Below are positions 1,213 to 63,460 of a stretch of 63,715 nucleotides of DNA, in pieces. The stretch spans positions 1-63,715 of IMG/VR virus record IMGVR_UViG_3300036859_000316. One strand, given 5' to 3'. A model generated the notes under the pieces. The model was given only the letters and a program-made list of their open reading frames with translations. It did no database searches and was not told where the DNA came from. The translations under genes were made by a program, and so were the position numbers. Every line of letters begins with the position of its first letter. The first letter of the stretch is position 1. The DNA is from a virus.

Positions 1213-1840
1213 GCCGCCACTCTTCGAGGGGTGTCGCGCCGAAGGTCTTCGTGTGGGTGTAGCCGAGCGATTCGAGCTCGGCGGCATTTCGCAGGTGGGC
1301 CTCGTCATCGGTGGCCTCGGCGAAGATCAGCGGGCGCTCGCGGGCGATCGTCTCCCGAGCGCCGCGGAGCACCTGCGGCTCCATGCCCTCGACGTCGATC
1401 TTGAGCAGCGAGACGCCGCTGAGGTTGTAGTCGTCCAGCAGCCCCACCGGCACTAGGCCGTCGGCCGGGAAGGATGCCCCGATTACGTGGGCGGGGGCGC
1501 CGGTCACCTTGCCCCTGCCAGCTTTGTCGCCGAGCGCCAGCGGCCATACGGTCACGAGCTCACCGAGCTCATTCAGCGCCACGTTGCGGGTCAGCCGCTC
1601 ATGGTCGAGCGGCTCCACCGCGATCACGCGCAGGCCGCAGACGGCGGCGAACCAGAGGGTGTGATTGCCGACGCCCGCACCGACGTCGACGGCGAGCCCG
1701 CCGAGCTTTTGCCGGTAGATGTGTTGGAGCACCCGCGCCTCATACGGAACGCCCTCACGCAGCGAGCGGCCGATCAGCCCGCCCGGGTCCTCGATCCAAT
1801 AACTGCACCCGTGGGCGTTGATCTTGAGCAGCTCAGCCAA
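1196..1840 (-). CDS. FkbM-family SAM-dependent methyltransferase
   Basis: A TTG start at 1840 gives 214 residues and an 8-base TTGGCTGA overlap with the upstream stop, the same geometry as GTGGCTGA junctions elsewhere in this genome. Motif I is AVDVGAGVGNHTLWFA (about residues 47-62), followed by VIAVEPL (acidic end of strand 2). SLLKIDVEGMEPQVLRGA (about 145-162) is the FkbM signature KIDVEGxE, and LIFAEA follows. FkbM enzymes methylate hydroxyl groups, usually on sugars. Between two glycosyltransferases, the likely job is capping or decorating a glycan attached to the virion. Confidence 0.85.
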   Translation of the reverse strand: MAELLKINAHGCSYWIEDPGGLIGRSLREGVPYEARVLQHIYRQKLGGLAVDVGAGVGNHTLWFAAVCGLRVIAVEPLDHERLTRNVALNELGELVTVWPLALGDKAGRGKVTGAPAHVIGASFPADGLVPVGLLDDYNLSGVSLLKIDVEGMEPQVLRGARETIARERPLIFAEATDDEAHLRNAAELESLGYTHTKTFGATPLEEWRHGAAA

Positions 1841-9388: not shown

Positions 9389-11278
9389 TTACTCAGCCCC
9401 CTCCGGTTTCCGGGGCCCCCGCACTCGCCGCGGGCCCGGTGCCGGCCGGATCGCCGTCACGAACCTGCCGGGCTCGTTCAGCAGCTCGACGTTCTCGCGG
9501 TTCGCGCGGCCCAGGCGGATGATCTCAATCTGGTCCCGCTCGCGGTCTAGGCGGGCGATCTCACGCTCGCGGTCTAGGCGGGCTCGGCCGCGGGCGATCT
9601 CCGCGCCCGCCTGCTGGATGAAGGCCTCATACGAGCTCGGGTCTTCGACGGTGGGCTCCGTCTCCCCCCGAGGGCTGCGCGCCGCTAGGACCGGGGCGCC
9701 CTTGCTCGCGCCCGCGTGCCCGGTGTTCCAGACCTCCCATTCGAGGTCGGGGTCATCGCGCCATTCGGTGTGTCGGGCGGCGACCGCCTGATAGGCCTCG
9801 TCGATGAAGTCCGGGGGCACGAAGCGGCCCGTGCGCAGGGCCCGCTCTAGGGCGAGCTCTTGCCCGAGCTCGACCGGAAGAGTGGCGACGACCACCTTGA
9901 CCTCATAGCCGCGGTCCACGGCCTCGCGCAGCTTGCGGTGAAACTTGCCGCCCTCGCTGTCGCCGACCGTGTCGACGAAGATGTTGAGATCGCGGTCGAG
10001 CGCTTCGCGCAGGATCCGCTTCGAGAGCGCCGACGACTCTTCGTGGACAGCGGCGCCAGAGGCGCGGTCGGTCGCTCGGGCGAGCGCTTGGTACTCGTGC
10101 AGCTCGGCCTTGACGTCGTCGGGATTGACCCCGACCATCGTCTGCCCGTCATAGCCCTGGCCGAGTACCGACGACTTGCCCGAGGAGGGGCCGCCAGCGG
10201 TGAAGAGCGCCCGCTTGGTCCCGTGGGGGGTGAGCTCGGGGCAGTCCGCGCAGAGCTTCCCGTCCGAGTCGCGTTGGCGCAGGAACTTGTCCACGATCTC
10301 GTCGTGGAGCTCTAGGCGCTCGGGATCGTATTCGCGATCGCCGTTCGGCAGCGCGACCGACCACTTGTCTTCGGTGTCCTTGTGGCCGGTGAGCACCTTG
10401 TCGGCGAGCTCGCTACGTTCGCCGCCAACCTTGTCGCGTTTCAGGTCGGGCCGCAGACTGGCGATCGCGTCGAGGATCGCCCCGATCTTGATCCACCGGC
10501 CCGTCAGCGGATCCCGCGGGTGCTTGGCCTCTTCCCAGACCTTGCGCAAGGGCTCGCCCAGTCGGCCGGCCTCGATCGCTGCCGCCGCCGCGTCGGGGGT
10601 CGGGTAGCCGCCGTGCATCGGGCCGTTGACGATCCCCGCGACACCGCCACGGCCCGCCGTGATCCGCCCCGGGCTGCGGCCGCCGAGCTTCAGCTTGTTG
10701 GCCGAGTAGAGCCGCGCCTTCCACGAGTGCGTGCATTGGATATGGATCTGCCCGAGCGCGAGCACCGTCTCGATCGGCCACGGCCCCCCACCCTTGAGCG
10801 CCTTGCAGATCGGGCACTTGGCTCGCGGGCCGACGAGGTCGAAGGTGGGCTCAACCCCGTTCTCGCGGTAGAAGGCGACCTGCGCGTCGAGCCGCGCCGT
10901 CGCCACTTCGGAGCGTGCGATCAGATCGGCGCGGTTTCGCCCCCGATCGGCCAGGTAGCCGGCTAGGTGCGATGCCAGCCGATCGGGGGGAAGGTGCGGC
11001 CAGCGATCAGCCTCGTGCTTGACGAAGGCGTTGTAGGTAGCGACCACCGAGCGCGCGTTGCGGTCGGCCTCGGTTTGGAGCGCCTCGCGGATCTCGGCCG
11101 AGAGTCGAACCTGCCGGTGCTCGCCGTAGCGCGCCAACAGATCGGTGAGGGTGGCCCGGTACTCGGTGACCTTCGCCTGGTAGAAGACGCGCCGTAGCCT
11201 CTCGACCTCGCGATCGCCGAGCCGCATCGCCTTCAGCACGGCGGCGCGGGTGAGCTTGGCTTGGGTGCGCTTAGCCAC
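9389..11278 (-). CDS. MuF-like head morphogenesis protein fused to a zeta-type toxin kinase
   Basis: 629 residues. The N-terminal 200 resemble Mu gpF/SPP1 gp7 minor head proteins: helical start, RADLIARSEVATA (about 118-130), CPICKAL (155-161) and HIQCTHSWK (179-187), giving the Cys/His set common there. Residues about 355-520 look like a zeta toxin: P-loop GGPSSGKSS (362-370, Lys368), NPDDVK (385-390), HEESSALSKR (412-421), and ERALRTGRFVPPDFI (about 478-492), the zeta-like arginine helix. Zeta kinases phosphorylate UDP-N-acetylglucosamine and block wall synthesis. A basic and acidic coiled coil ends the protein. MuF proteins are head-internal and delivered with DNA, so the toxin probably enters the host at infection. 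It follows portal and small genes. Confidence 0.85.
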   Translation of the reverse strand: MAKRTQAKLTRAAVLKAMRLGDREVERLRRVFYQAKVTEYRATLTDLLARYGEHRQVRLSAEIREALQTEADRNARSVVATYNAFVKHEADRWPHLPPDRLASHLAGYLADRGRNRADLIARSEVATARLDAQVAFYRENGVEPTFDLVGPRAKCPICKALKGGGPWPIETVLALGQIHIQCTHSWKARLYSANKLKLGGRSPGRITAGRGGVAGIVNGPMHGGYPTPDAAAAAIEAGRLGEPLRKVWEEAKHPRDPLTGRWIKIGAILDAIASLRPDLKRDKVGGERSELADKVLTGHKDTEDKWSVALPNGDREYDPERLELHDEIVDKFLRQRDSDGKLCADCPELTPHGTKRALFTAGGPSSGKSSVLGQGYDGQTMVGVNPDDVKAELHEYQALARATDRASGAAVHEESSALSKRILREALDRDLNIFVDTVGDSEGGKFHRKLREAVDRGYEVKVVVATLPVELGQELALERALRTGRFVPPDFIDEAYQAVAARHTEWRDDPDLEWEVWNTGHAGASKGAPVLAARSPRGETEPTVEDPSSYEAFIQQAGAEIARGRARLDREREIARLDRERDQIEIIRLGRANRENVELLNEPGRFVTAIRPAPGPRRVRGPRKPEGAE

Positions 11279-12254: not shown

Positions 12255-12496
12255 GCGCCCCACAGATCGTAGTAGCCGTGGCCCCACGGACGGTCGGGGT
12301 GGACGTACCCGCGAGCGCGCGGCGCGAGGCCGAGAATCTCCCGCGCGACGTCGCGCACCGCGTCGCGGGGGCGCACCTGCGCCATGAAGCGCCGGTGCCG
12401 ATAGAGCCGGATCGGGTGCAGGCGCCAGTCGCGTCGCGCCACACCCTCGGGCACGTCGCAGGCCCAGCGGCGGTATGCGACGAACGGGCCGATCAC
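12251..12496 (-). CDS. Small basic aromatic hypothetical protein
   Basis: 81 residues from 12496, overlapping the portal stop by 4 bp. Rich in Arg, Trp, Tyr and His (YRRWACDV, RLYRHRRFM, PWGHGYYDLWGA). No cysteine pair. Unknown role in the head module. Confidence 0.6.
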   Translation of the reverse strand: MIGPFVAYRRWACDVPEGVARRDWRLHPIRLYRHRRFMAQVRPRDAVRDVAREILGLAPRARGYVHPDRPWGHGYYDLWGA

Positions 12497-14088
12497 GGCC
12501 CCGCCCCATTCCCGGCGTGGATCACGACCTCACCGCCGACCTTCTCGACCACCACCGGCGAGACGTCGGCGTCGGGGTCGATCTCGTGGACGCGGCGGAT
12601 CGCGTCCTCGACCGCGTCCTCGAAGGTCTCGGTGATCGAGCGCGTGGTGCCGGCGGCCTTCTCGAAGAACTCGGCCTCGGGGCCCGGCGGCGCCAGGGCC
12701 GCCTGCTTCGACGTCACGAGCTCGCTATTCCAGCCGAACTCGACCTCGCCCTCTTGCGGCTCGGCACCCTCGGCGGCCTCGGGCATCGGCGGGTAGCCGT
12801 GGGCGGTGCGGTATTCGGCGTTTGTGATCTTGCCCCGGTCGGCGAGGTCGTTGGCCGACTGGCGCTTGGCCTCATCGCCCTTGATCGCGATCTCGTTGAA
12901 GTCGAGGGCCAGGTGCGGGAAGAGCTCGGCGAGCAGCGAGTGGTCGAGCGCGTCCTGCACTTCCTCTTGCTCGGGGTCGAAGACCTGTTCCTTCGTGATC
13001 GCCCGCTCGACCTCGGCGGTGTATTTGCCGGCGTCCTCTATGTCGGCGACGAAGACCGGCGAGAGCCGGAAGGCGCCGAGCGTGGCGCGGCGGTTGTCGC
13101 CGCGGTAGGCGATGAAGCCCATATCGCGCTCCGAGGTCACGGCGAGGTTGTTGACCTGCGCCTTGAAGCCGGCCGGGACGCCGATGATCGCCACCCGCGA
13201 TTGAGCGGTGCCCCCGCGCATCGCGTCGGCGACCTGCTTCACGAACGCCGGCGGGACCTCGATCCTGACCTCCGATCCGTCCCCCTTCTCTTCGCCCTGG
13301 ACGAAGATCACGGTCGGCGGCACCCCCGAGGAGCCGAAGAATGAGGCGTTGGTATCGCCGGCGAGCTTGTCGCCGAGGTAGTCGATCGCCAACTGCGCGT
13401 CGGGCGGCAGCCCGTAGTCGCGGCTCTCCGACGTGTAGAGCTGGAAGGGGATCAGCTCGTTTCGATCCCAGCGCATCCCCGAGCCGGCGAGCTTGTTGGT
13501 CGGCTGGCCGTCGGGGCCGTACTTCACCTTGGCGCCGAAGTCGTAGAAGCGCACCGCGTTCGTCAGCGTGCCGGCTTGGCGCAGCATGATCCAGCCGTCG
13601 CGTTCCTTGGTTCGCCGGATGCGCTTGCCCGGCGCGTGGTAGAGCCCCGAGATTTTCCCCGTGATCTTGTTGCGGGCGACTTCGAGGTAGCCGTTGCCGC
13701 ACTCGTACTTGTCCCAGATCACGGCCGTCAGGAGCCGGCCGAATGACGGGCGCTTCAGCATCGCGTCGCGGCGCGCCAAGCGGTTGAGCTCATCGCGCGC
13801 CTCGCGCCTTTCCTCGTCGACCTCGCCCTTGATTTCGTCCTCATGGCCCTCACGGACGGCGAGCTCGAAGCCGAGCCCGACGGTGTTGTGCGCGATCGCC
13901 GCGATGCACGAGCGGCGGATCCGGCCGACCTGGGTCAGCGCCGCGAGATTGTCGAGGTCCGCCGGCGGCGGGAGCGAGCCCTCCGGTGTCCACGGGTCGT
14001 CGTCGAGCGGCTGCGTTGAGCCGCCGTCACCCGGCGCCGGGGGCATCGGAGCGACCGTCAGGACGGCCTTGCGGATCTCGTCGCTCAC
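12493..14088 (-). CDS. Portal protein
   Basis: GTG at 14088 gives 531 residues. Features of HK97/PBSX-type portals: an N-terminal acidic disordered part, helical RRSCIAAIAHNTVGLG, the segment AVIWDKYECGNGYLEVARN, the clip/wing region LYHAPGKRIRRTK, YGLPPDAQLAIDYLGD, and the C-terminal stretch IGVPAGFKAQVNNLAV, FRLSPVFVADIEDAGKYTAEVERAITKEQVFDPEQEEVQDAL. The dodecameric portal closes one vertex and serves as the DNA channel and terminase docking site. It follows terminase, which agrees. A very acidic C-terminus may contact the toxin-fusion or scaffold. Confidence 0.88.
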   Translation of the reverse strand: MSDEIRKAVLTVAPMPPAPGDGGSTQPLDDDPWTPEGSLPPPADLDNLAALTQVGRIRRSCIAAIAHNTVGLGFELAVREGHEDEIKGEVDEERREARDELNRLARRDAMLKRPSFGRLLTAVIWDKYECGNGYLEVARNKITGKISGLYHAPGKRIRRTKERDGWIMLRQAGTLTNAVRFYDFGAKVKYGPDGQPTNKLAGSGMRWDRNELIPFQLYTSESRDYGLPPDAQLAIDYLGDKLAGDTNASFFGSSGVPPTVIFVQGEEKGDGSEVRIEVPPAFVKQVADAMRGGTAQSRVAIIGVPAGFKAQVNNLAVTSERDMGFIAYRGDNRRATLGAFRLSPVFVADIEDAGKYTAEVERAITKEQVFDPEQEEVQDALDHSLLAELFPHLALDFNEIAIKGDEAKRQSANDLADRGKITNAEYRTAHGYPPMPEAAEGAEPQEGEVEFGWNSELVTSKQAALAPPGPEAEFFEKAAGTTRSITETFEDAVEDAIRRVHEIDPDADVSPVVVEKVGGEVVIHAGNGAGP

Positions 14089-14131: not shown

Positions 14132-14476
14132 TCAGACCGGATGCAGTCCCGCCGCCTCGCGCGCCGCCGAGTGCGCCAAGTTTCCGTCGCTCGACGCCCA
14201 TGAGAGCCTGATTCGGTTCCCGTACCTTCGCTTCACGCCATGCCCGCGCAGCGCTTGGCGGCAGTCCGTCCTCACCTGCACCAGTCCCTGCCCGTCTTCG
14301 ACCAGGGACTCGGCGACCCGAATCGCTTGGCGCAGCGCTTCCTTCTCAAGCGCTGTCACATTCCTCAGCGGTCCCGCGATCCGCAGTCGGAACTCAACGG
14401 TGCCGTCCTCGCGCACGACGGCGACCCCGCCATCCCCGGTCCACGGGTTGAGTGCAGCGTCGGCCCACAGGATCAC
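14132..14476 (-). CDS. RNase H-like fold protein next to terminase
   Basis: ATG at 14476, 4-bp overlap with terminase; 114 residues. ILWADAALNPWTGDGGVAVV (strand with Asp, short-hairpin pattern), NVTALEKEALRQAI (Glu on helix A) and VRTDCRQALRG (Asp on strand 4) follow the RNase HI D-E-D order; the last acidic residue is replaced (NLAHSAAREA has His where N..AD.LA is usual). So the fold is likely, catalysis doubtful. RNase H cleaves RNA in DNA-RNA hybrids. Between terminase and portal it may have a packaging or structural role. Confidence 0.6.
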   Translation of the reverse strand: MILWADAALNPWTGDGGVAVVREDGTVEFRLRIAGPLRNVTALEKEALRQAIRVAESLVEDGQGLVQVRTDCRQALRGHGVKRRYGNRIRLSWASSDGNLAHSAAREAAGLHPV

Positions 14477-15726
14477 GCCCCGGCGACCCCGAGCTTCACC
14501 GTCCGCGACTGGCCTTCGAGGATCAGCTCGGTCATCCCCCAGACCAGCGCGTCCAGGCGGTCAGGCGAGTGGCCGAGATCGGGGGCCCATCCGGTGAGCT
14601 GCGTTTCGAGCTCGGGGAAGGCGCCGACGTGGTGGACCCGGCCCTGCTCGTAAAGGGCGGCGATCGGCTCAGCCCGCGTCTGCTTGCCGCGCGAGGCCCA
14701 GACGGTCTTCACCGGCACCTTCGGCGCCACGGTGCGAAGCGTCGCCTCGACCATCTCGCCGCCGTTGTTTCGCTCGGCGATGATCCGGTCGGCCCCGAAC
14801 TCGCGATACCCGAGCACCGCCCGCTGCGCCCACTCATGGGGCGAAGCCCTGAGCGAGAGATCGCCGAGCACGTAGCCGTCACCATCGGAGCCGAGGCCGC
14901 AGACGACGATCCCGGCCTCAGCCGATGCCGCTTCGCTTGAGGCGGGCGGGTCGATCGCGACCACGATCCGGCGAAGCTCGGGCTGGTCGTCGCGCTCGAT
15001 CCGGTGCTCTTCGATCTGGGCCCACTTCCACAGCGCCCCCTCGACGTCGTCGAGCAGCTCGCCTTCGAGCTCCTGGCGACCGAGCCGGGTGCCGGCGAAG
15101 CGCTCCGACAGCGCGGCGACCATCGCCTCGGACAGATTCTCGACGTTGTCCTCCATCCTCATCCGGGTCACCGGCACGTCGTCGTCGTCGATCAGGAGCT
15201 TCGGGATTCCCGAGCGCCCCTTCGGCGTCCCGGTGGCGATGATCCGCCCGGGGTCGAGCCGCACGGCAAAGCCGACCGACTCTTCCCAGGCCCGCCGCCA
15301 CTCACGCCACAGGCCGACCTCGTCGCACCATGCCCCCCGGAGGTTCGATCCCTGAATCCGCAGAGCACCATCGTCGGCACCGTCGATATGGATCCGGGCC
15401 CCACCGTAGATGCGGAGCTCGCCGAGCGAGCGATTCCACGTCTCGACCGCTGGCCCGAGCACCGCGAGCAACCCTGAGCCACGGCCCTCAACGCAAATGT
15501 CGCGGGCGTCGCCGTAGGTCGGGGCAACGACAGCCCAATCCCCCGGCGGGGAGCTCAGCACCCAGTCGGCGAGCGTCTCGGCGCCGGTGCGTGTCTTCCC
15601 CGAGCCCCGGCCGCCGCGCACGTACCACGTCCGCCAGTCGCCGGGCGGGGGGAGCTGCTCGGGGCGGGCAAGCTGTCGCCAGCGCTCAGCGCGAAGATTC
15701 GTCGCGAGCCTGAGCTTCGCCGCCAC
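14473..15726 (-). CDS. terL: Terminase large subunit
   Basis: GTG at 15726 gives 417 residues and a 41-bp overlap with the small subunit. Walker A GGRGSGKT (about 38-45), then VVAPTYGDARDICVEG, Walker B region WCDEVGLW (about 145-152), and GTPKGRSGIPKLL, the coupling motif region. The nuclease half has VVAIDPPAS (about 251-259), GDLSLRASPHEW, AERNNGGEMVEATL and the C-terminal DRLDALVWGMTELIL, matching Terminase_6/RNase H-fold nuclease acidic residues. The ATPase pumps DNA through the portal; the nuclease makes the packaging cuts. Adjacent small subunit and portal confirm the module. Confidence 0.92.
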   Translation of the reverse strand: MAAKLRLATNLRAERWRQLARPEQLPPPGDWRTWYVRGGRGSGKTRTGAETLADWVLSSPPGDWAVVAPTYGDARDICVEGRGSGLLAVLGPAVETWNRSLGELRIYGGARIHIDGADDGALRIQGSNLRGAWCDEVGLWREWRRAWEESVGFAVRLDPGRIIATGTPKGRSGIPKLLIDDDDVPVTRMRMEDNVENLSEAMVAALSERFAGTRLGRQELEGELLDDVEGALWKWAQIEEHRIERDDQPELRRIVVAIDPPASSEAASAEAGIVVCGLGSDGDGYVLGDLSLRASPHEWAQRAVLGYREFGADRIIAERNNGGEMVEATLRTVAPKVPVKTVWASRGKQTRAEPIAALYEQGRVHHVGAFPELETQLTGWAPDLGHSPDRLDALVWGMTELILEGQSRTVKLGVAGA

Positions 15727-16192
15727 CGGCAAGCTCGCGCGTGAGCCGCTCGATCTCTCGGTCGAGTTCGTCCGAGAGCTTGAGGTTGAGTTCGCCGCCA
15801 TGTTCGACCTTCACCCTGTCGCGGTATCTCGGGTCATTGGCCCGCAGCCATGCTCGCGCGGCTTGCGTCGATCCGTTGCGGGCTTGAGTGTGCAGCGCGG
15901 CCTCGAAGAAGGCGTGAGCCTCCCCCCTCGCACGCATGACCTCGGTGACTAACGTGACGAAGGGCTGCTCGCTCTTCGGGATTCGCTTGGCACCCTCGAA
16001 CTCGCGACCGCGCGAGAGCCACCGACTCAGGGTTTCGCGGGCGATGCCCGCCGACTCGGCTGCCGCTTCCTGCGAGACCCCGAGTCGCAGGGCTTCGAGG
16101 ATCGCATCCTTGACGGTGATCTTGCGCTCGGTGCCCTTCTCGTCGGTGACGAGAATCTTCGACGTGAGCTTCGTCGTGCCGGCGGCTGGCAT
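15686..16192 (-). CDS. terS: Terminase small subunit, DNA-recognition HTH
   Basis: ATG at 16192 gives 168 residues. KDAILEALRLGVSQEAAAESAGIARETLSRWLSRG is a helix-turn-helix of the small terminase kind, after a beta hairpin (ILVTDEKGTERKITV). TLVTEVMRARGEAHAFFEAALHTQARNGSTQAARAWLRANDPRYRDR is the oligomerisation helix with the DP-x-R-Y-R-D-R sequence common in these proteins, and the C-terminus is charged. It would bind the cos/pac site, possibly the inverted repeats just upstream (16193-16299). Confidence 0.8.
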   Translation of the reverse strand: MPAAGTTKLTSKILVTDEKGTERKITVKDAILEALRLGVSQEAAAESAGIARETLSRWLSRGREFEGAKRIPKSEQPFVTLVTEVMRARGEAHAFFEAALHTQARNGSTQAARAWLRANDPRYRDRVKVEHGGELNLKLSDELDREIERLTRELAGGGEAQARDESSR

Positions 16193-47966: not shown

Positions 47967-48847
47967 GCGATCTGCCCGCTGATGAGCCAGCGATTCTCGG
48001 AGGCGATCTGGCAGACCAGGAAAGCGGAGCCGTGGCGGTTGGCGATCACGAACGAGGTCGCCTCGGTTCCGTCGAGCTGGTTGGCAAGCACGCCCGGCGC
48101 GGCGATCTGGATCGTCAGCGTTCCGGGCACTCCCGTCGCGATCTTCAGCGAGCGGGTGACCTCGTGGTTATGGCCGTCGGCCACTGCGGGCCCGTCCGGG
48201 TAGGTGTTGAGCGGGACCGTGACGACGCGGTTGACGGTCGAGCCGACATCGACCCGGCCGCCGACGTCGGTGAAGAGCAGGGTCGTATCGACGCCCGAGG
48301 TCCGCTTCGGAGTGGTGCCGAGCTGTGTGGCGATCTGCGCGGGCGTGACGAGCGTCGCGGCGTCCCAGTTGTTCTCCGACTCATCCCAGACCAAGCCCTG
48401 ACCGCTCGCCATGCCGGTCGGGATGCCGTGGATGCCCTCGGTGAGCGCATTGTGCGCGTCTACGTCCCCGCCACCGCCACCGCCGCCCGAGCTGATGACC
48501 TCGTCCGGGTACTCGCCGGCGATGCCGGTGCCGTCAGCCGGTCCCGCTGGCCGCGCGCCGCGACCCGAGATCGCCTCCCAGCGAAGATCCTCGCCGCCGG
48601 TGACCTTAACGTTGTAGCTCCACTGGTCGACCCACGCCTCGCCCCCGGTGTTGAGCCGGACGATTCCGCGCTCGTCGGTGAGTAGGCAGGGCTGCGGGAT
48701 CGCGGCGCCGGCGACCGGATCGTCGTAGACCGTCGCCAGCGTGGTCGGGGCGTCGCGCTTGTAGATTTGGACGGGCTTATCGACCTTGATGTTGCCCTCG
48801 AAGTCGCGAACCACGACCTCGTCGGTGCAGACGCGCAGCAGGTCCAT
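47963..48847 (-). CDS. Minor tail/fibre protein with glycine-rich hinge
   Basis: ATG at 48847; 294 residues. DLLRVCTDEVVVRDFEGNIKVDKPVQIYKRDAPTTLATVYDD starts a beta domain (baseplate or tail-tip type: G-N-I-x-V-x-K-P-V). A run of eight glycines (about 119-126) is a hinge. The C-terminal half (FTDVGGRVDVGSTVNRVVTVPLNTYPDG, GTLTIQIAAPGVLANQLDG) is fibre-like. ATGA overlap on both sides. Function as tail adapter or fibre is inferred. Confidence 0.65.
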   Translation of the reverse strand: MDLLRVCTDEVVVRDFEGNIKVDKPVQIYKRDAPTTLATVYDDPVAGAAIPQPCLLTDERGIVRLNTGGEAWVDQWSYNVKVTGGEDLRWEAISGRGARPAGPADGTGIAGEYPDEVISSGGGGGGGDVDAHNALTEGIHGIPTGMASGQGLVWDESENNWDAATLVTPAQIATQLGTTPKRTSGVDTTLLFTDVGGRVDVGSTVNRVVTVPLNTYPDGPAVADGHNHEVTRSLKIATGVPGTLTIQIAAPGVLANQLDGTEATSFVIANRHGSAFLVCQIASENRWLISGQIA

Positions 48848-51800
48848 TAGATATCCCCTCGTTGGCGAGCCAGAACGCCGATCTTAGACAGCAGTGCCAC
48901 CGGATCGGGCGGGCCGCCGTCGACCGTGGTCACGTTGAAGTTCTGGACGGTGGGCTCGCGGCGCCCTGCGCGCCCAGCCGCCGCACCGTCGAAGAGACCG
49001 ACCGGAGCCTGCCCCGGCGTCCCGAGCAGCGCCTTGTTGAGTCGCGCCGTGAGGTCGGCCGGGACGATCTGCGTCCCCGTCGGCAGGAGCGCGAGCTCGG
49101 AGGCGCCGGTCTCGGCGCCGATCAGCGCGAGCATCGTCTTCGTGAGCGGGCCGCCGAGCGCGAAGCCGCGATAGCCGAGCTCGCGCAGGGTGGCGAGCGC
49201 CGCAGCCTTCTGCGCCGCGTAGTTCGAGCCCGACGCGAAGGCCGAGCCCTGCACCGCCTGGGCGATTACGTGAGCCGGCCAGTTGGTCGTCTGGGCGAGC
49301 TCGATCGCGCCGCCCTTGCCGTAGTAGCCCCGGGTCAGGAAGCCCTGCACCTGCGCGGCGACGTCGCGCATCCCGATCCCTGTCCCTGCTGCGGTCGAGG
49401 GTAGGAGCTGAAGGACGTTGGACGACGTCGAGCCCATCCCCGACTCGGCCCACAGGGCCTCGAAGAGCGCCAGCACCGCTCGGTGGGGCGCGCTGAGCGC
49501 GCGAGCTACCCGGGCCGCGACTTGGGCGACCGGACCCTTGCCGCCAACGATCTCGCCGAGCTCGGCGGTGGCGGTGGGCTGGTGGCGCTCGATGAAGGCG
49601 TTCCCGGCATCGCGCATCGTCTCGACCGCCGCCCTCGCGGCCGAGGCGACCGGCCCCTCGCCCGTGACGCCGATCTTCGGGATCAGTGCCGCGACCGCCC
49701 CCGAAACCGCGCCGGCGATCTTGCCCGCGAGGTACTCGGCAACGGTGAGGAAGGTGACGTGCAGGTGGGCGTTGCCGCCGGCGACCGATGGCGGACCGTG
49801 GCCCGACCACGCCTCGGTGCCCCCCGCGCCCGTCCAGCCGACCGGCGTGAAGCCCGACTGCACCGCCGCCCTCGCTGCGCGGTCGACGAGCTCCCAGGAA
49901 CCGCCCGGCCCCGGGACGAAGTCGGCCGCGGTGCCGTACTGCGTATGTTCGGCCGAGGCGTGCCCCGGCCCGAAGGCGTCGGTGAGGAAGAGCTTGAAGC
50001 GCCGAATAAAGCTCAGCAGCGCCCCCATGACCCGCGTTGAGGCGCGCTCTCCTGGGTAGCCGGGGACGCCGGCGATCCCACCCTCGGCGAAGCCCGGGAC
50101 GCCGAGCATCCGGCCGGCCGTCGCCCACAGGCCAAGGTTGCGGGGCCGATAGCGCGGGTTAGTCGCGAGGATGATCTCCGGGTACTGCGGGCCTTCCTCG
50201 GAGACCTCGTAGTGGCGCTCGCGGGAGACACCGCCGCGGGCGAAACCCCTCGGCGACAGGTCGGGTAGCTCAAGTTCAAGCCGCGGCAGGTGCAGGTGGG
50301 AGCCGAGCCCGCTGGTCAGCTTGCGAACGGCCTGCATGACGAAGTTGGCCGCCCGGCGAACCACCGACGCCAGCGAGCGCAAGAGGCGCCCGATCTGGGA
50401 GGTCGTCCGTGAGAGGCCGTGGGGCAGGCGCGCGAAGGCGTCGATGATCCCCTCGACGCCCCGCTGGAAGACGTCTTTGGTTTCCTGGATCGCCTCGCGC
50501 GAGGCGTCGCGGACCAGCCGCAGGCCAGCACGGATCCCGTCGCGGAAGCCCTCCATGAGATTCCCGCCATAGCGACGAAAGACGCGGGACGGTGATCCGA
50601 TCCCGAGCGGGGACAGCGGCGCGGTCACAATGTCTTCGGCCACACCCTTCGCCGCGTCGAGCACGCCCTTGGCGCCGTCCTTGATTCCCTCGGCGAGCCC
50701 CTTCATCAGATCCTTGCCGATCTCGACGAAATCATCGACCAGCCCCTTGATAGTGCGGAAGGCTCGTTGCAGGGCCCGGCGCACGATCCCCGGGATCCGG
50801 CCGACGAAGCGGGCTGCGTCGACGACCCCGTGCCAGATCCGCTCGGCGACGTCACCGATCCGCCCGCCGATCGAACGCACCACGCCGAGCACGGCCCGCC
50901 AGGCCCGACGCGCGATCCCAGACAGCGCCCCCCAGACGGCGTCGAGTACGTTGCGGACACCGCGGATCTCAGCCGTGATCTGATCCTTGATAAACCCCCA
51001 CAGGCGCCCAGCGGCACGACCGAGCGCCCGCCATGCATCGACGGCCGCTCCCCTGATCGCATCCCATACGTTGCCGGCGATTCGCCGCACGGCCCGGATC
51101 GGTGCCGTGATCGCGTCCTTGATTCCCTCCCAGACCCGCGAGGCGATGTCGCGAAGTCCCCGCCATGCATTTGCGATGCCCCGGGCCACGGTGGCGGCGA
51201 TCCGCCCCACGAAGCGCAGGGCACCGCCGAGGTTGCCGATCACAAGGCTGATCCCACCGATGACCGGGCCGAGCAGAATGATCGAGCGCAGCGGTGCCCC
51301 AATCTTGTTCAGCAGGCCGAGCACGAAGTTGAGACCCCGCGCGATCAGGATCAGACCCCTCACGAACGGATCGAGCACCGGCGCGAGAAGCTGTCCGAGT
51401 TGGATAACGACGAGTGCGAGTTGCAAGAACAGGGTCACGAGATCCTTCGCCAGCGGCAGCACGTCCCTGAAGAACTGGTTGAGCCGCTCCTGCCCCTCGA
51501 CCGACCCCAGCCAGTCAGCGAGCGCCCGTGCCCCGTCGGCGAGCCACTTGACGAGCCCGCCGCCCTCGCCGGTGGCGGCCCGGATGAAGGCGAGGAAGAC
51601 GCGGCCGAGCTGGTAGGTCAGATCGAGCCACAGCCCGAGCTGCTCCATGACGCCGGACAGGTCGATGTTCTTCGATCCCCGCGCCACTTGCGCGAGCCAA
51701 TGGTTGAAGGTCCGAAGGCCGCGGATCAGGTACGGCAGCGCGGCCTCGGCGATGTTGCGCAGGATGCGGAGCAGGAGGATGAAGCCGCGCGAGCCGACGC

Positions 51801-53562
51801 GCACGAGCTCGGCCGACGAGCGCAGCAGCATCGTGAAGAATCGCTGCCACGCGGGCCGGGCGAGCTCGCGGGCCAGGCCGGCGAACGCCCGCCCCATCGC
51901 CTGCCCGAGCGTCCGCAGCGGGCCACGCAGGGAGCGGATCAGCGGGAGCAGGGTCCGAAGGCCCCGCGTAATCCCGCGGAAGATCGGATCGAGCGCAGGT
52001 CCGAAGGCCCGGCCGATCCGCTTCGCGACCTCGACCACTGCGAGGGCCGCCCGCGAGCCCTTGAGGTCGCCGAGCGCCTTGTTCGCCTTGCTCTGAGCCT
52101 GGGCGAGCGCCTGAGCTGCCTGGGCCGCCTGTCGATTCGCCGACTCAACCGCCTGACGAGCGGAGATCACCGACGGCGACTGCTCGACGGTGGCGGCCTG
52201 CGCCCGCCGCAGCGTGTGCTCGGCGTCGCCGACCGCGCGTGCTGCCTCGATTACCTCGGCGTTGGCCTCGGCGACTGCGTGGCGAGCGTCGATGACCTCG
52301 GGGGCGTTCTTGACACCCTCGCGCTCGGCCTCGTTGGCATCTAGGGACGCCCGACGCGATGCGATCCGAGTGTCGATCACGTCCTGCTCGGCCTGCGCCA
52401 CCCGGAGGCGGGCCTCGGCGACGTCGAGGCGCGAAGCCTCCGGATCGGCTTGGACTCGACGAAGCTCTTGGCGGGCCCGGCGCTCCGCGAGGATCGCGCC
52501 GCGGTGAGAGAGCGCCGCATTGGCGGCGGCGAGCTGCTCGTCGATGATCGCCCGCCGTGCAGCGTGGCGGGCTTCGGTCAGGTCTTCCTCGGCCTGCTTG
52601 GCCCGGTAGTTGGCGTCGGTGAGCCGGTCCTCAGCCGAACGGAGTCCGTCGACGGCTTGCAGCAGGTCGTTTCGGATCTGCTCGGCGGCGGTCTCGCGGG
52701 CTTGTCGCAGCGCGTCCACCGCCTGCCCCTGCGCCTGCTCGGCGTTGGCTAGGCCCTCGGAGGCGGATTTCACCTGCTCCTGGGCGGCTTCGTAGGCCTT
52801 CTGGGCCTGGGTAGCCTTGGCGAGCCCCACGGCCGCCCCCAGCGCGAGGCCGAGGACCGGGCCGAAGGCGAGCGCCGCCGCCACGCCTAACGCGCCGAGT
52901 CCCGCGATTGCAGCCCCGAGCGAAGCGAGGATTGCGGCGAGCGCCCCCCCGAGGGCGACGATCGAGGGGATCAGGATCCCGACGATCGCACCGGCGGCGG
53001 CACCCGACACGGGAGGGATCAGCGGGATCTCGGTCAGGAAGCCCTGCAAGCCACCGCCGGCGCCGCCCGCAGCCGGGGCGACCCGGTCGAGCGACCCGAC
53101 GAGGCTGTCGGCGGTGCCCGCAATCTGCGCGAGGCGGCTGGTTATCGAGCGGTCGACGTCGATGGTGACGTCGACTTCCTTGGCGTCGATCTGGTTGAGC
53201 AGGAGCTCGAAGCTCGCCGCTTCGGCGTAGGCCTTGGCGAGCCGCAGGTTGACTTCGGGGCTGGCGGTCTCACGGTCTACGGAGTCGAGCGCCGCCTTGA
53301 ATGAATCGAGCTTCGCCCGCGCGGCCCCGGTGTCGAGCTCAACCTTGCCCTCGGCGCGCTGGCGAGCGAAGTCGGCCAGCTCGGCCCGAACCTTGCGGAG
53401 CTTCGTCTCGGCGCTCGCCGTCTCGACGTCGAGCTCGGCGGTCGGGTCAAGCTGGCCGAAGGCTTCGAGCTGGGCGCCGAGTTGTTCAATGGTCCGCCCG
53501 GCGTCGACGTCCTCGCCGCGGAGCCGAAGCAGTAGGTCGTGGAAGGATGCCGAGGCGTCAGA
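48847..53562 (-). CDS. Tape measure protein with M15-like and lysozyme-like domains; start undefined
   Basis: Open from 53562 to 48847: 1571 codons, but no ATG, GTG or TTG before TTG at 53049 (1400 residues). Upstream coding is real (for example KEVDVTIDVDRSITSRLAQIAG). ATG at 53587 opens nine codons and stops at TGA (53560-53558); a +1 shift at AGGAGTCTGAC would join it. The rest: repeated hydrophobic helices and VARR-type coiled coil, membrane spans, then GTAADFVPGPGG and NAHLHVTF (M15-type His, Asp and HxH) and ALFEALWAESGMGSTSSNVLQLLP, QAVQGSAFASGSNY (lysozyme-like). It fixes tail length and opens the wall during DNA entry. Confidence 0.85.
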   Translation of the reverse strand, partial: SDASASFHDLLLRLRGEDVDAGRTIEQLGAQLEAFGQLDPTAELDVETASAETKLRKVRAELADFARQRAEGKVELDTGAARAKLDSFKAALDSVDRETASPEVNLRLAKAYAEAASFELLLNQIDAKEVDVTIDVDRSITSRLAQIAGTADSLVGSLDRVAPAAGGAGGGLQGFLTEIPLIPPVSGAAAGAIVGILIPSIVALGGALAAILASLGAAIAGLGALGVAAALAFGPVLGLALGAAVGLAKATQAQKAYEAAQEQVKSASEGLANAEQAQGQAVDALRQARETAAEQIRNDLLQAVDGLRSAEDRLTDANYRAKQAEEDLTEARHAARRAIIDEQLAAANAALSHRGAILAERRARQELRRVQADPEASRLDVAEARLRVAQAEQDVIDTRIASRRASLDANEAEREGVKNAPEVIDARHAVAEANAEVIEAARAVGDAEHTLRRAQAATVEQSPSVISARQAVESANRQAAQAAQALAQAQSKANKALGDLKGSRAALAVVEVAKRIGRAFGPALDPIFRGITRGLRTLLPLIRSLRGPLRTLGQAMGRAFAGLARELARPAWQRFFTMLLRSSAELVRVGSRGFILLLRILRNIAEAALPYLIRGLRTFNHWLAQVARGSKNIDLSGVMEQLGLWLDLTYQLGRVFLAFIRAATGEGGGLVKWLADGARALADWLGSVEGQERLNQFFRDVLPLAKDLVTLFLQLALVVIQLGQLLAPVLDPFVRGLILIARGLNFVLGLLNKIGAPLRSIILLGPVIGGISLVIGNLGGALRFVGRIAATVARGIANAWRGLRDIASRVWEGIKDAITAPIRAVRRIAGNVWDAIRGAAVDAWRALGRAAGRLWGFIKDQITAEIRGVRNVLDAVWGALSGIARRAWRAVLGVVRSIGGRIGDVAERIWHGVVDAARFVGRIPGIVRRALQRAFRTIKGLVDDFVEIGKDLMKGLAEGIKDGAKGVLDAAKGVAEDIVTAPLSPLGIGSPSRVFRRYGGNLMEGFRDGIRAGLRLVRDASREAIQETKDVFQRGVEGIIDAFARLPHGLSRTTSQIGRLLRSLASVVRRAANFVMQAVRKLTSGLGSHLHLPRLELELPDLSPRGFARGGVSRERHYEVSEEGPQYPEIILATNPRYRPRNLGLWATAGRMLGVPGFAEGGIAGVPGYPGERASTRVMGALLSFIRRFKLFLTDAFGPGHASAEHTQYGTAADFVPGPGGSWELVDRAARAAVQSGFTPVGWTGAGGTEAWSGHGPPSVAGGNAHLHVTFLTVAEYLAGKIAGAVSGAVAALIPKIGVTGEGPVASAARAAVETMRDAGNAFIERHQPTATAELGEIVGGKGPVAQVAARVARALSAPHRAVLALFEALWAESGMGSTSSNVLQLLPSTAAGTGIGMRDVAAQVQGFLTRGYYGKGGAIELAQTTNWPAHVIAQAVQGSAFASGSNYAAQKAAALATLRELGYRGFALGGPLTKTMLALIGAETGASELALLPTGTQIVPADLTARLNKALLGTPGQAPVGLFDGAAAGRAGRREPTVQNFNVTTVDGGPPDPVALLSKIGVLARQRGDI

Positions 53563-58746: not shown

Positions 58747-59718
58747 TCAAGCGCGGACAGCACTCGGCACCTGCCAGCGAAGGCGTGTGAGTTTGCGCTG
58801 CACGCGCACCGACAGGCCCGGCTCGACGTCGCGAAGCGCCATCGACAGGCCGCCCTGGTTGACGTCGGAGAGCCCGAGCGCCCGAGCCGAGCGCACGGTC
58901 GGCGCGAGCTGGGTGGCATCGGCGAGGGCCTGATCCTCCATCGCGAAGCGGATCGCGGTCTCGACCGCGTCGAGCTCGCCCGCGTTCCACTCATCGGCGG
59001 ACCATCCCCAAGCGCCCGTGACCGTGACCAGCCCGGGGCCGGTGGGGAACTCGGCCGGTGCCTCGCCCACCTGCATACGTCGCAGCTCGCGGGTGAGCCA
59101 GGTGGCACCACCACCCAGGCTCGTGATCGACAGCCGGTCCCGTTCTGCGCTCAGCTCGACCTCGGATGCCGTCAGCCACGAGCCGGTGATCGAGAGCTCG
59201 AAGCCCGGGGCGAGCCTCTTCGGAAGCCAGAGCGTGTTACCGCCGGCGCCGTCGAGCAGCTTCGCGACCGGCTCAGCTTCGGTGCCCTCGGCGACGAAGG
59301 GCTGGCGGCAGTAGTCCTCGACATCGGCGATCGCCGCGGCGCGCAGCTCGGCCTGCTGCTCTTGGTCGAGCGCTGCGGTGAGCTCGGTGACGCTCGACGC
59401 GGCGAGCAGGGCGTCGAGGGGCGGGTAGCCGTCGTCGGCAGTGGACGGCGAGAAGACCGAGGACGAAGGCGGCGACTCGTTGTTGTCATCGTCGAGCGCC
59501 ACCAGGCGGAAGTAGCCCTCGGCGAGCGTCGCCTCGACCGTCGTCAGCTTGCGCTGTTGCGGGTGGGCCGGGTCGTCGTCGGGAGCGAGGATCACCTGCT
59601 CGATCGCCGTGAAGACGACATTGTCGGGCGATTCCTCGATCCGCGCCAAGGTCCACGGGACCGAGTCATAACGCGGCGGCGGCGTCCAGACGAGATCGTG
59701 GACGTAGCTGGGACTCAT
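58747..59718 (-). CDS. Head-tail connector (gp6-like) with N-terminal FnIII-like domain
   Basis: ATG at 59718; 323 residues. The N-terminal 90 residues read as a beta-sandwich (DLVWTPPPRYDSVPWTLARIEES, ATLAEGYFRLVALDDDNNESPPSSS), an FnIII/Ig-like fold. Then LRAAAIADVEDYCRQPFVAEGTEAEPVAKLLDGAGGNTLWLPKRLAPGFELSI, the head-tail adaptor gp6 signature, and VTVTGAWGW, LDAVETAIRFAMEDQ. So a gp6-like connector with an extra exposed domain. Confidence 0.7.
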   Translation of the reverse strand: MSPSYVHDLVWTPPPRYDSVPWTLARIEESPDNVVFTAIEQVILAPDDDPAHPQQRKLTTVEATLAEGYFRLVALDDDNNESPPSSSVFSPSTADDGYPPLDALLAASSVTELTAALDQEQQAELRAAAIADVEDYCRQPFVAEGTEAEPVAKLLDGAGGNTLWLPKRLAPGFELSITGSWLTASEVELSAERDRLSITSLGGGATWLTRELRRMQVGEAPAEFPTGPGLVTVTGAWGWSADEWNAGELDAVETAIRFAMEDQALADATQLAPTVRSARALGLSDVNQGGLSMALRDVEPGLSVRVQRKLTRLRWQVPSAVRA

Positions 59719-62433
59719 CTAACCTCGAACCCTACCGCGACGCGCTGACCGCACCAGCCGGAATCCGATCCCGAACGGGCGCTCGGGGGTCGGGCCGATC
59801 TCGACCGCAGGGAGGATCGCCAGCTCAAGCGAGGCGTCGGCTGAGCCATCCGACGGATCGAGCGCCACCTGCGTCAGCGCTCGAAGGGCGAGGATCGCCT
59901 GCGCGTCACCGTTGGCCGCAGCGAGCACGAGCTCGATCGGGACCCCAACCACGAGCGTCCCCGTCCCCAGCCCAGATGAGGCACCGAGCGGCAGCTCGAC
60001 CGGAGCGCTGAGCACGAGCGCCCCGAGTCCCTGCCCGCTCGCGGCGCCCAGCACGACGCGGGTCGGCGCGGAGAGCGCCAAGGCGGCACTCGCCTGCCCG
60101 ACGCCGGGACTGAGCACGAGGCGAGGCGGGGCGCGCAGCTCGATCGAGGTCGCGGCCTGACCGTCTGCGGCATCCAGCCCGAGCAGGGCTGCGGCGGTGA
60201 GGGCAAGCGTGGCCTGCCCCTCCCCGCCGCCGCTTGACAGGGCGAGCAGCGTGGGCGCCGCGAGATCGAGCGAAGCGTCGGCGATGCCGTCGGCCTGGTC
60301 GATCTCGACCTCCGTCGCGGCGCTGACGAGGACAGTCGCGAGAGCCTCGCCTGCGGCGGGGTCGAGGGCCAAGAGCGAGGGCGCGCTCAAGGTCAAGGCG
60401 GCCAGCGCTTCCCCGCCGGCAGGGTCGAGGCTGACCACGGTCGGTGCCGCCACGAGCAGGGCCGCGGAGCCGAGGCCTTCAGCGGCCGCTAGGTCGATCA
60501 CGGTCGGGGCTGCGAGCGCGAGCAGCGATTCGCTCACACCGCTGGCCGGGTCCAGCGATAGGAGCGCCGCAGCGGTGAGCGCGAGGCTGGTCGAGGCCGC
60601 CCCGTCGGCGCTCGCGAGCTCGACAAGTGTGGGAGCGCCGAGGCTGAGCAGAGCGGCGCCGATGCCCGATGCCGGGTCCAGCGGGATCTGAGTCGGGGCG
60701 CTGAGGGCCACCGAGGCATCGGCTTGGCCGACGCTCGGGTCGAGGGGGACACCCGTCACAGCGCTAAGCAGGAGGCTCGCGAGGGCGCTGCCGTCAGCGG
60801 GATCGAGGTCGAGCTCGGTGAGCGCCGAGAGCACCAGCGACGGCGAGCCGAGCCCGTTCGCCGGCGCGAGGGCGAGCAGGGCCGGTGCCGTGAGATCAAG
60901 TGCTCCCACCGCTACGCCGGCTGAGGCATCGAGCGCGACGGACGTCGGGGCCGTGAGGGCCGCCAGGGCGCTCGCCAGCCCAGACGAGGCGGCGAGCGGT
61001 ACCTGCGTCGGGGCGCTGAGGGCCAGCAGCGCAGCGGCGAGCCCAGCGGCCGACCCGAGCGGGACCGCGGTCGGTGCGGACAGAGCCACGGAGGGCGAGC
61101 CGACGCCCGAGGCTGCCGCTAGGGGGATCGCGGTCGGGGCCTTCAGGGCGACGGTGGGAGCCGCTACGCCGACTGAAGCCGCGAGGGCGATCGCGGTCTT
61201 GGCGCTGAGGGCGAGGCTCGCAGACGCCACCCCCGCCGCGGCCGCCAAGTCGAGCGTCACGGGCTCGGCCTCGACCCACTCGACCATGTAGCCGAGCAGG
61301 TCGAACATCATCGACTTGGACGCTCCGGTCACGTTGCGCACTTGGATCGTCGGGGTGACGTCCGGGTTGGCCTGCGCGTAGATGCCGGCGCTCTTGGAGG
61401 TCCAGCCGGTCGGGTCGGTTCCCGCCGCCGTGGTCCCCGAGGCCTGCGTCGTCTCGAACATGGTCGGGTTCGTGAGGCCCTGAAACGCCAGGGACCGCGA
61501 GGTCGTGACCGAGCTGCCGCCGCGCCCGATCTGCCAGACGCCCAGGATCGAGTCGTTCGCCTGCATCCCCGCCCCGCCGTTGGCGAGCGTGTCGGTGTAT
61601 TTGGCGAGGTTGAAGACCTTCGTGTCGGTCGCGTTGTTGTTGGCGTTCTTGATCTGCGACGTGTTCGTCGCCGATGCCAGCACGACGCCGACCGGCGGGT
61701 TGTTGTTGAGCGCGTCGAACAGGTTGGTCGTGCCCCCCGCGCCGGCGACCCATCCGGTCCCGACGCCGCCACCATCCGAGACCGGCCGAAGAAGCGAGAT
61801 GTGACTTGGACCGGGCCAAGAGTTCTGATTCGCGCCGACCGAGTCGTTGACGATCAGGTCGTCGATCCGAACGGTCACGCCGGCATGAACGACGCCGCCC
61901 CAGCGGAAGACGCTCGGTGTCCCGGTGCCGATCGCCGCCGACACCGAAGCGATCACCTGCCCGTCCACCCGCAGCTCTAGCTCGCCGTTGCCGGACGCCG
62001 GGACCCTGAATCGGACCTCGACGTAGTACCAAGTGTTCGCCAAGAGGGTGCCGGTAGGATTGCCGACCCCCGCCCCCGCTGCGTTATGGAGCCGCAGCGT
62101 GTTGTCGGTCCTCAGCCGCAACGAGAAAATCTCGTTGGAGCCAATGTCGATGACCTGCACCACCTTCGCCTCCTGCGTCGGCGTCCCGTTCCACGACAGC
62201 GCGAATCCCATGAAGCCGTCCTCGTCGTTGTCGAACGAGCCGAAGAGGTTGGCCTCGACATACTTGCTCGTGCCGGACGCGCAGTTGAGGCAGGCCCGCG
62301 AGCCGGGAGTCCGCGCGTTCGCAGTATTGATCGTCGGCGAACCGCTGGTCCCGCAGCCCTGACCCTCCGGGTCGCCGACGCCGACCGCGGTCAGCATCTG
62401 GGTCTCAAACCCGTTGGTTACGAGCCGCGCCAC
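59719..62433 (-). CDS. LamG-like structural protein with 21-residue repeat fibre
   Basis: 904 residues. The first 200 contain a concanavalin/LamG-like sandwich (EDGFMGFALSWNGTPTQEAKVVQVIDIGSNEIFSLRLRTDNTLRLHN, YYVEVRFRVPASGNGELELRVDGQVIASVS, VTVRIDDLIVNDS). About 200-390 is a second beta region. From about residue 392 to 874 come 23 units of 21 residues of the form T-x-V-x-L-x-x-A-x-G-x-A-x-A-x-L-x-L-x-A-P. Probable long beta fibre on the virion or tail fibre. DNA repeat 59812-61260. Confidence 0.7.
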   Translation of the reverse strand: MARLVTNGFETQMLTAVGVGDPEGQGCGTSGSPTINTANARTPGSRACLNCASGTSKYVEANLFGSFDNDEDGFMGFALSWNGTPTQEAKVVQVIDIGSNEIFSLRLRTDNTLRLHNAAGAGVGNPTGTLLANTWYYVEVRFRVPASGNGELELRVDGQVIASVSAAIGTGTPSVFRWGGVVHAGVTVRIDDLIVNDSVGANQNSWPGPSHISLLRPVSDGGGVGTGWVAGAGGTTNLFDALNNNPPVGVVLASATNTSQIKNANNNATDTKVFNLAKYTDTLANGGAGMQANDSILGVWQIGRGGSSVTTSRSLAFQGLTNPTMFETTQASGTTAAGTDPTGWTSKSAGIYAQANPDVTPTIQVRNVTGASKSMMFDLLGYMVEWVEAEPVTLDLAAAAGVASASLALSAKTAIALAASVGVAAPTVALKAPTAIPLAAASGVGSPSVALSAPTAVPLGSAAGLAAALLALSAPTQVPLAASSGLASALAALTAPTSVALDASAGVAVGALDLTAPALLALAPANGLGSPSLVLSALTELDLDPADGSALASLLLSAVTGVPLDPSVGQADASVALSAPTQIPLDPASGIGAALLSLGAPTLVELASADGAASTSLALTAAALLSLDPASGVSESLLALAAPTVIDLAAAEGLGSAALLVAAPTVVSLDPAGGEALAALTLSAPSLLALDPAAGEALATVLVSAATEVEIDQADGIADASLDLAAPTLLALSSGGGEGQATLALTAAALLGLDAADGQAATSIELRAPPRLVLSPGVGQASAALALSAPTRVVLGAASGQGLGALVLSAPVELPLGASSGLGTGTLVVGVPIELVLAAANGDAQAILALRALTQVALDPSDGSADASLELAILPAVEIGPTPERPFGIGFRLVRSARRGRVRG
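59812..61260 (-). repeat. About 23 degenerate 63-bp units coding 21-residue repeats
   Basis: Units share alternating Leu/Val and Ala, DPASG-type turns and APT ends; at DNA level they differ throughout, so the array has diverged long ago or is under protein selection. See the parent gene. Confidence 0.8.
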
Positions 62434-62445
62434 GCGGCCGGCCTC

Positions 62446-62979
62446 CTAGTCTTCGGTGACGACTAGACCGCCGATCGCAACCGTGGGCGGGGTCTGCGTG
62501 ACCGAGATCACGGTCGAGGTCGCGGTGCCCCAGTAGAGGACGTTCCCCGATCCGATCGAGGTCCCGTCCTTCAGCGCCCAGCCGATGATCGTCGAGCTGC
62601 CCGACGTGCAGGCCGCGAAGGTGAGCGCGGCCGAGTTGGTCTTCGACCCGCCCGACGCAGCGGACAGGTCGGCCGCCGCGATCGCGAGCTCGGCATAGCC
62701 CGTGTAGTCGGCCTCGACGAGCGTCGCGCCGGTCGAGGCGTCGGTCGGGACGGTGGTGCAAAGCGCCAGCGCAACCGTCGTCGGCATCGTGAAGGCGCCG
62801 TCGCCGAGGTTGTGATCCAAGTTTTTGTCTTCGAGGTAGTTCGATTTTGAGGCGGCGAGAATGTCCGGCCACTGCGCTCGCCCTTGAACTATGTCGCGCT
62901 GCCACCGGCCGTAATCGCTGATCCGGCCCGGTTGAAACTCGATCACCGTCAGCTTCGGAGTGACCAGCTTGTCACCCAT
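62446..62979 (-). CDS. Phage tail-fibre/head-fibre-like protein
   Basis: 177 residues from 62979. The segment TVALALCTTVPTDASTGATLVEADYTGYAELAIAAADLSAASGGSKTNSAALTFAACTSGSSTIIGWALKD resembles the family of single-domain phage structural proteins (A-L-x-T-x-x-P-T-D...G...G-Y-A-R/E...N-S-A...F) often annotated tail-fibre protein. A 45-residue extra N-terminus (SDYGRWQRDIVQGRAQ). Follows endonuclease VII with 8-bp overlap. Confidence 0.65.
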   Translation of the reverse strand: MGDKLVTPKLTVIEFQPGRISDYGRWQRDIVQGRAQWPDILAASKSNYLEDKNLDHNLGDGAFTMPTTVALALCTTVPTDASTGATLVEADYTGYAELAIAAADLSAASGGSKTNSAALTFAACTSGSSTIIGWALKDGTSIGSGNVLYWGTATSTVISVTQTPPTVAIGGLVVTED

Positions 62980-63460
62980 GCGGGCCGCCCCCTTCGAGGT
63001 AGGTCAGGGCCGCAGCGAAGATCGCGGGATCCTCGCGGAGCATCCCTAGTGCTGAGTTGCAGGGACCGCACAGAAGACCGCGCACCTGCCCGGTGTCGTG
63101 ATCGTGATCGACGCCCAGCCGTCGGCCCTGCCCATCGCCGCGGCAGATCGCGCAGCGCCCATCCTGGGCTTCGAGCATCGCAAGGTATTGCTCTTCTGAG
63201 ATCCCGTAGGTGGCGGCGAGGTCTCGGAAGCGTCCTTTGTTATGCCACCAGCGTCGCCATGCTTCACGCCGACGCTCGGGATGCCGTTCGCGCCAACGCG
63301 CCACGGCGGTAGCGTTCCCGGGTCGCCGACATTCCTTGCAGCGGTTCGCGTAGCCGCTCGCGGTGTGGCGGTCCCGGTGAAACTCGCTCACGGGCTTCGT
63401 CTGCTCGCAGGTGCAGCAGGCCTTGGCCCCGTCGACGACTTCTACGGCGTGCGCTGGCAT
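62972..63460 (-). CDS. Endonuclease VII-type recombination endonuclease
   Basis: ATG at 63460 (TAATG overlap with the winged-helix-like gene across the joint); 162 residues. Zinc finger CCTCEQTKPVSEFHRDRHTASGYANRCKECRRP (about 16-48, CxxC...CxxC), then ISEEQYLAMLEAQDGRCAICRGDGQGRRLGVDHDHDTGQVRGLLCGPCNSALGMLREDP, the endonuclease VII core: CAIC, DHDH, RGLLC-x-x-CN-x-x-LG. Resolves branched DNA before or during packaging. Placed at the joint between head and tail genes. Confidence 0.88.
   Translation of the reverse strand: MPAHAVEVVDGAKACCTCEQTKPVSEFHRDRHTASGYANRCKECRRPGNATAVARWRERHPERRREAWRRWWHNKGRFRDLAATYGISEEQYLAMLEAQDGRCAICRGDGQGRRLGVDHDHDTGQVRGLLCGPCNSALGMLREDPAIFAAALTYLEGGGPHG

Follow-up and report, generated by a model that had tools for sequence, protein, structure and literature searches.

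What shape does a long array of short repeats take in a phage protein, and what does it do there? The question is raised by a gene in the window, that is, the whole 63,715-nucleotide stretch analyzed here (IMG/VR record IMGVR_UViG_3300036859_000316), in which a first-pass annotation had picked out 23 tandem 21-residue repeats at 59812-61260. We confirmed this array, with the frame offset by one residue (59809-61257), in a protein that divides as follows:

59719..62433, minus strand: repeat protein ORF, 904 aa, GTG start
61804..62433, minus strand: N-terminal domain, residues 1-210, predicted concanavalin A-like / LamG-like jelly roll (PHROG 2448, AF2, VIA-align)
61258..61803, minus strand: second conserved domain (residues 211-392), predicted to be rich in beta structure, with a fold of low model confidence (alignment A5; AF2 pLDDT about 32-78)
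59809..61257, minus strand: repeat array, protein residues 393-875, 23 gapless tandem units of 21 residues
59719..59808, minus strand: C-terminal tail (residues 876-904), in which a 24th unit begins and a basic end follows

The units follow the consensus x-[LVI]-x-L-[DA]-[AP]-[AS]-x-G-x-[AG]-x-A-x-L-x-L-x-A-P-T, in which Gly9 is kept in all 23, Leu4 in 22 of 23 and Ala19 in 21 of 23. The partial 24th unit, which reads AVEIGP, comes directly after unit 23, and the tail that it opens carries 7 arginines in its 29 residues. A chance origin of the periodicity is ruled out by the BLOSUM autocorrelation of the protein, with z 22.5 at lag 21 and z 19.7 at lag 42, against a maximum of 4.0 at any lag in 300 shuffles. 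The units had been described as constant in length, nearly free of insertions and highly diverged at the DNA level, all of which is borne out: there is no insertion or deletion across the 23 units, and the mean identity between units is 41% for the protein and 53% for the DNA. At fourfold sites, the third bases agree in 41% of pairs, compared with the 37% expected from composition; the synonymous sites are thus near saturation, and the two-strand alternating pattern is retained. Tandem Repeats Finder did not detect a 63-bp array in the DNA, so the 21-residue repeat is visible in the protein only. Adjacent units are no closer to each other than units that lie far apart, which, together with their strong divergence, marks the array as old and not the result of a recent expansion; a recent DNA duplication as its source is ruled out by this divergence and the absent 63-bp DNA array. 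We infer that selection has preserved both the length of the array and the pattern of its units.

The earlier remark that no family seems to match holds for the repeat unit and fails for the front end. No relatives of the unit turned up when the whole protein was scanned against Pfam, NCBIfam, and PHROGs or in a PDB profile search, whereas residues 41-258 match PHROG 2448 (E 4.5e-11), and by this sequence match the front end is a deep-branching member of that phage family. In the literature, we found nothing on this 21-residue repeat or on the phage Hiyaa, which carries a relative of the protein. The unit is therefore new among what could be searched, and the family of the front module was already known, though unnamed. 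An alignment of 27 sequences (A5; 17 invariant columns) displays a two-domain layout of about 390 residues, starting with MARLxxxGFExxS and ending in a WxLVEY-like strand. The LamG-like front domain proposed by the first-pass annotation is supported by the predicted fold: in the full-length AF2 model, the mean pLDDT exceeds 90 over residues 71-170, and the predicted jelly roll superposes in VIA-align with Z 17.3 to 5mqr, 16.1 to the glucuronan lyase 2zzj, and Z 14-17 to many lectin-like domains and polysaccharide lyases. The Pfam LamG/ConA profiles gave no significant match in the window protein itself, and Laminin_G_3 (PF13385) matches three of the 27 relatives (best E 3.2e-6). PDB matches of the module to BtuD (E 0.0013) and to a Fab were judged to be due to chance, as they involve different folds and short stretches.

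The genomic setting gives an indication of where such a protein might act. The ends of the contig (1-254 and 63462-63715) form a direct repeat of 254 bp, identical at 253 of 254 positions; with this overlap, the record closes to a circle of about 63.46 kb and is apparently a complete, circularly permuted genome. The genes relevant to the argument, in their order on the circle, are as follows:

14473..15801, minus strand: terminase
12493..14088, minus strand: portal
9389..11278, minus strand: minor head protein
3760..5853, minus strand: head maturation protease
2795..3760, minus strand: major capsid protein (PHROG 1623; tblastn hits with the same annotation), ahead of the repeat gene on the circle
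538..1308, minus strand: glucosyltransferase (PHROG 854), flanked by the genes for the capsid protein and endonuclease VII
62972..63460, minus strand: endonuclease VII
62446..62979, minus strand: Gp80-family protein, 177 aa, upstream neighbor (Pfam PF23140, 'Podophage GP4 fiber I protein gp80')
62442..62447, minus strand: Shine-Dalgarno-like AGGAGG, 8 nt before the GTG start of the repeat gene
58747..59718, minus strand: head-tail adaptor, downstream neighbor (PHROG 442)
48847..53049, minus strand: tape measure

The repeat gene follows the Gp80 gene and precedes the adaptor in this order, and beyond the adaptor, on the same strand, come further connector candidates, the tape measure, minor tail proteins, and an endolysin. 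Circular closure thus places the repeat gene between the capsid and head-tail adaptor genes, in the head/neck block. Its stop codon abuts the ATG of the adaptor (TAGATG), and this coupling, along with the AGGAGG, is as in a phage structural operon. By its position, the gene encodes a probable virion component. The Gp80-family neighbor matches PF23140 with E 2e-20 (73.9 bits versus a curated cutoff of 27) and is also found beside the module gene in a second locus, L013; a PDB search with this neighbor as a single sequence returned no match.

Some further features of the genome may be recorded here. The tape measure has a 22-residue periodicity of its own around residues 600-850 (z 8.9). A DNA methyltransferase (16727-18403, minus strand; PHROG 67) lies upstream of the terminase, and, with the glucosyltransferase, might serve in modification of DNA or the virion. 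In the tail region, residues 32-170 of the product of 44722-45828 (minus strand) match PHROG virion structural and head protein families.

Among cultured phages, gp13 of Streptomyces phage Keanu and gp11 of Galactica match the front 390 residues. A search profile built from these two and the window protein recovers 63 loci in IMG/VR and seven matches in GTDB genomes, namely six Streptomyces and one Burkholderiaceae bin. Searches of IMG/VR with the whole repeat protein, the capsid protein, or the adaptor found no close relatives of the window phage. The module gene is immediately followed by that of the head-tail adaptor in the window, in Keanu, Galactica, Hiyaa, and Spocter, and in the loci L010, L024, L025, and L043. 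Distant relatives in Pam4, Leszy, and Kharn, and also in L050, are encoded in the tail-tip region, so the front module is not tied to the neck.

What follows the module differs widely between these proteins. In seven of 28 sampled relatives, there is no C-terminal arm to speak of, which indicates that the module can exist without one, and in three it is followed by nonrepetitive domains. Units of 20 residues of an 'ALGxAxETDxAQPL' (ETDA) type occur in 10 of 30 tree rows, Keanu among them. Other 20-residue units are the 'GSLxATATATA' of L011 and L017 and the 'GSSLSGxGxL' of L013, while L075 has units of 18 residues, L014 of 14, and L050 of 17, the last rich in Ser/Thr; in L007, L005, and L020, the arm consists of Ser-Pro or Ser-Thr tracts. 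L041 (20-residue units) and L064 (22-residue units) have a partial module only, and the match of L064 is weak (E 2e-4). In the module tree, the ATAT-bearing L011 and L017 and the armless L031 form a fully supported group beside the ETDA types; close relatives, as grouped by this tree, can carry different arms. The window protein sits on a very long branch (4.2 changes per column), and its exact position in the tree is therefore unsure.

The C termini of the relatives in L014, L043, L026, and L002 carry another tandem repeat, a short one of 7-10 residues, distinct from the main array (KKxSPYxKKxSPY, TAGQPYTTW, SGPxLTPGTSGP). The proteins of L072 (6001-9912) and L006 (6001-9333) have no repeats; there, the module is followed by an extra domain, of which L006 has one copy and L072 two, and by a long further stretch.

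To what extent these arrays are akin was assessed with a wraparound profile for each array, run all against all with 60 column shuffles per pair. The ETDA-type arrays (Keanu, L010, L019, L026, L032) find each other with z 4.3-11.6, and the L011 array finds that of L017 with z 9.3. In contrast, the window unit scores z -1.0 to 0.7 against the Keanu-type 20-residue family; its best partner is L064, with z 1.4 and four of 60 shuffles as good, and all others have z of at most 1.1. An HMM of the window unit likewise found nothing in the arrays of the relatives better than the reversed or shuffled controls. On profile comparison, then, the window unit is not detectably related to the other arrays so tested; those of L005, L007, L014, L043, L050, and L075 were set apart from it by eye only. 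Given how short the units are, and how much Ala, Gly, Ser, and Leu they contain, a very distant kinship is possible.

Constancy of length is seen again in the Streptomyces phages. The arrays of Hiyaa, Spocter, and Galactica are 51-61% identical to that of Keanu with zero indels, all gaps falling ahead of the main array, and the lengths of the four proteins are close (Keanu, 1106; Hiyaa, 1110; Spocter, 1101; Galactica, 1103). That 39-49% of the positions differ without a single indel indicates that array length is held constant, and such a pattern in the aligned sequences supports selection on array length in these relatives.

As for shape, the unit reads as a strand at positions 1-4, then a DPAxG turn, then at positions 10-19 a longer strand that leads into another turn, PT. 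Twelve of the 21 unit columns are without any charged residue, a number that 0 of 10,000 shuffles reached, and 42 of the 43 charges sit in eight columns, the charges of the array being confined to alternate, variable positions of the unit. The alternation of strands and turns that had been proposed is thus supported, each unit being a regular strand-turn-strand element, one face of which is uncharged. With a mean hydropathy of +0.94 and a net charge per residue of 0.064, the array plots well within the folded region of the charge-hydropathy diagram. Given the charge-free columns and this deep folded-side position, the sequence of the array by itself, apart from the AF2 model, argues for order.

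This bears on the idea of the array as a spacer, flexible and weakly ordered, in which the exact sequence matters little. The Ser-Pro and Ser-Thr tracts joined to the front module in L007, L005, L020, and L050, two of which the charge-hydropathy test places among disordered sequences, lend themselves to such a reading, as does the low AF2 confidence over the full array. However, beyond its place on the charge-hydropathy plot, the array combines a strict unit length and an invariant Gly with the lack of any indel over an old divergence, and we regard a flexible spacer as unlikely. The variable outward positions beside a conserved core are also what a repeated binding surface would show, and each repeat could accordingly be a binding unit, so that many weak interactions with host glycans or the surface of the capsid would add up along the array. 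Yet the units have neither a conserved surface residue nor an aromatic residue, and the relatives swap the array for unrelated sequences or lack the arm, which renders this explanation improbable.

Two ordered structures come into consideration, and the strand-turn-strand layout, as read from the consensus, would fit both alike. One is a single-chain parallel beta-solenoid with 21 residues per turn; at about 0.48 nm per turn, its 23 turns would extend for about 11 nm. AF2, run on single chains with a four-row alignment of six units, returned one solenoid model with pLDDT 79.5 and pTM 0.71. A MAFFT alignment of overlapping repeat blocks was shifted by whole units and was kept out of the prediction. 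This best model superposes in VIA-align on solenoid-like chains, namely 6fm2 (Z 10.9) and SufD 5awf (Z 10.8, 2.2 A over 126 residues), and the unit, with its uncharged face, is free of the internal stacking of charges that is typical of spurious AF2 solenoids. On the other hand, the other four models reached pLDDT 45-55 only, the array is mostly below pLDDT 50 in the full-length model, which is confident for the jelly roll only, and Foldseek found no match of the array model at E < 0.001 in PDB or BFVD. Moreover, Pratt and colleagues observed that AF2, unlike AF3, makes confident but unrealistic solenoids from random perfect repeats, doing so for 36 of 50 random 20-residue repeat sets in the first set (PMC11795689). 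In light of this bias, the six-unit model counts as weak evidence, and we hold the solenoid as a tentative possibility.

The other structure is a homotrimeric fiber shaft of strand-turn-strand repeats, by analogy with the adenovirus triple beta-spiral, which would be some 30-45 nm long. The regular two-strand unit with its invariant Gly, Pro turn, and alternating hydrophobic residues would suit such a shaft, as would the low charge and the absence of aromatic residues, and the adjoining gene belongs to a phage fiber family (Gp80). Against this, the PDB profile search found no sequence match to any solved fiber, and the window unit has 21 residues, whereas that of the known triple beta-spiral has 15. 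A trimeric shaft, like the solenoid, is to us a tentative possibility.

Taken as a whole, the protein has in our estimate an even chance of being a virion appendage protein of a siphovirus, comprising a conserved front module and a beta-rich arm of fixed length formed by the 23 repeats. The front module of about 390 residues would be the working part, serving in attachment near the head-tail junction or in binding of surface glycans. Its conservation across phages of unrelated hosts suggests attachment of the front end to the particle, and the predicted lectin fold suggests that it may bind a host or capsid glycan; the 'minor tail protein' of Hiyaa and Galactica is an annotation only. The very long branch of the window protein means that its function could have drifted. 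The arm would extend the front module by a set length, each unit contributing two short strands joined through the DPAxG and APT turns, with uncharged residues toward the core; it would serve to space or extend rather than provide a specific site for binding. Presence in the virion, the rod-like form of the arm, and its role as spacer or extension are what we infer from these lines of evidence. Some relatives have Ser/Thr-rich arrays that the charge-hydropathy test classes as disordered, and an ordered rod thus cannot be a need of the whole family.

A broader proposal, which we advance with reserve as possible rather than probable, is that unrelated arms were repeatedly fitted to one phage virion module and converged both in unit size, about 20 residues, and in having a fixed total length. 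These would be interchangeable measured rods, of which the window array is an undescribed 21-residue type. The widespread but unnamed PHROG 2448 gains from this analysis a clear architecture, that of a constant lectin-like front, as predicted, with an exchangeable repeat arm of fixed length. If the arms are indeed rods, they provide natural examples of several unrelated repeat sequences with the same job, some of them in cultured Streptomyces phages and hence testable. Structure predictors with a bias toward solenoids on repeats could also be usefully tested on the array.

Comparison with known systems brings out both what is shared and what is particular to the window protein. Closest are the PHROG 2448 proteins of Keanu, Hiyaa, and Spocter (gp13) and of Galactica (gp11), annotated as minor tail or hypothetical proteins. 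Their front module is the same, at about 30% identity; the gene again immediately precedes that of the head-to-tail adaptor, and the C terminus bears a long tandem array with units of similar length. They differ in that their unit has 20 residues (..LGxAxxxxTAxxLxxxKR..) rather than 21, with no detectable kinship to that of the window (z 0.7, 15 of 60 column shuffles as good), and in that an extra domain stands ahead of the main array. The front domain has, by prediction, the same fold as the ConA-like / Laminin_G_3 lectin and polysaccharide-lyase jelly rolls, though the Pfam profile that recognizes some of its relatives has no significant match in the window protein. Bactofilin, the CAP1 CARP domain, SufD, and beta-helical antifreeze proteins superpose on the best six-unit AF2 model (Z 7.8-10.9), yet in the PDB profile search beta-solenoid rods have no sequence relation to the window array, and their Foldseek E values were never < 0.001. 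An analogy may be drawn with the Anabaena myophage A-1(L), in which a neck fiber in the form of a chain of beads emanates from the head-tail junction, each bead being a separate copy of a trimeric protein (PMC10966104). Both would be appendages of a repeated-bead type at the head-tail junction, a placement that for the window protein is read from gene position only; whereas A-1(L) strings together separate protein copies, the window phage carries its repeats in tandem within one chain.
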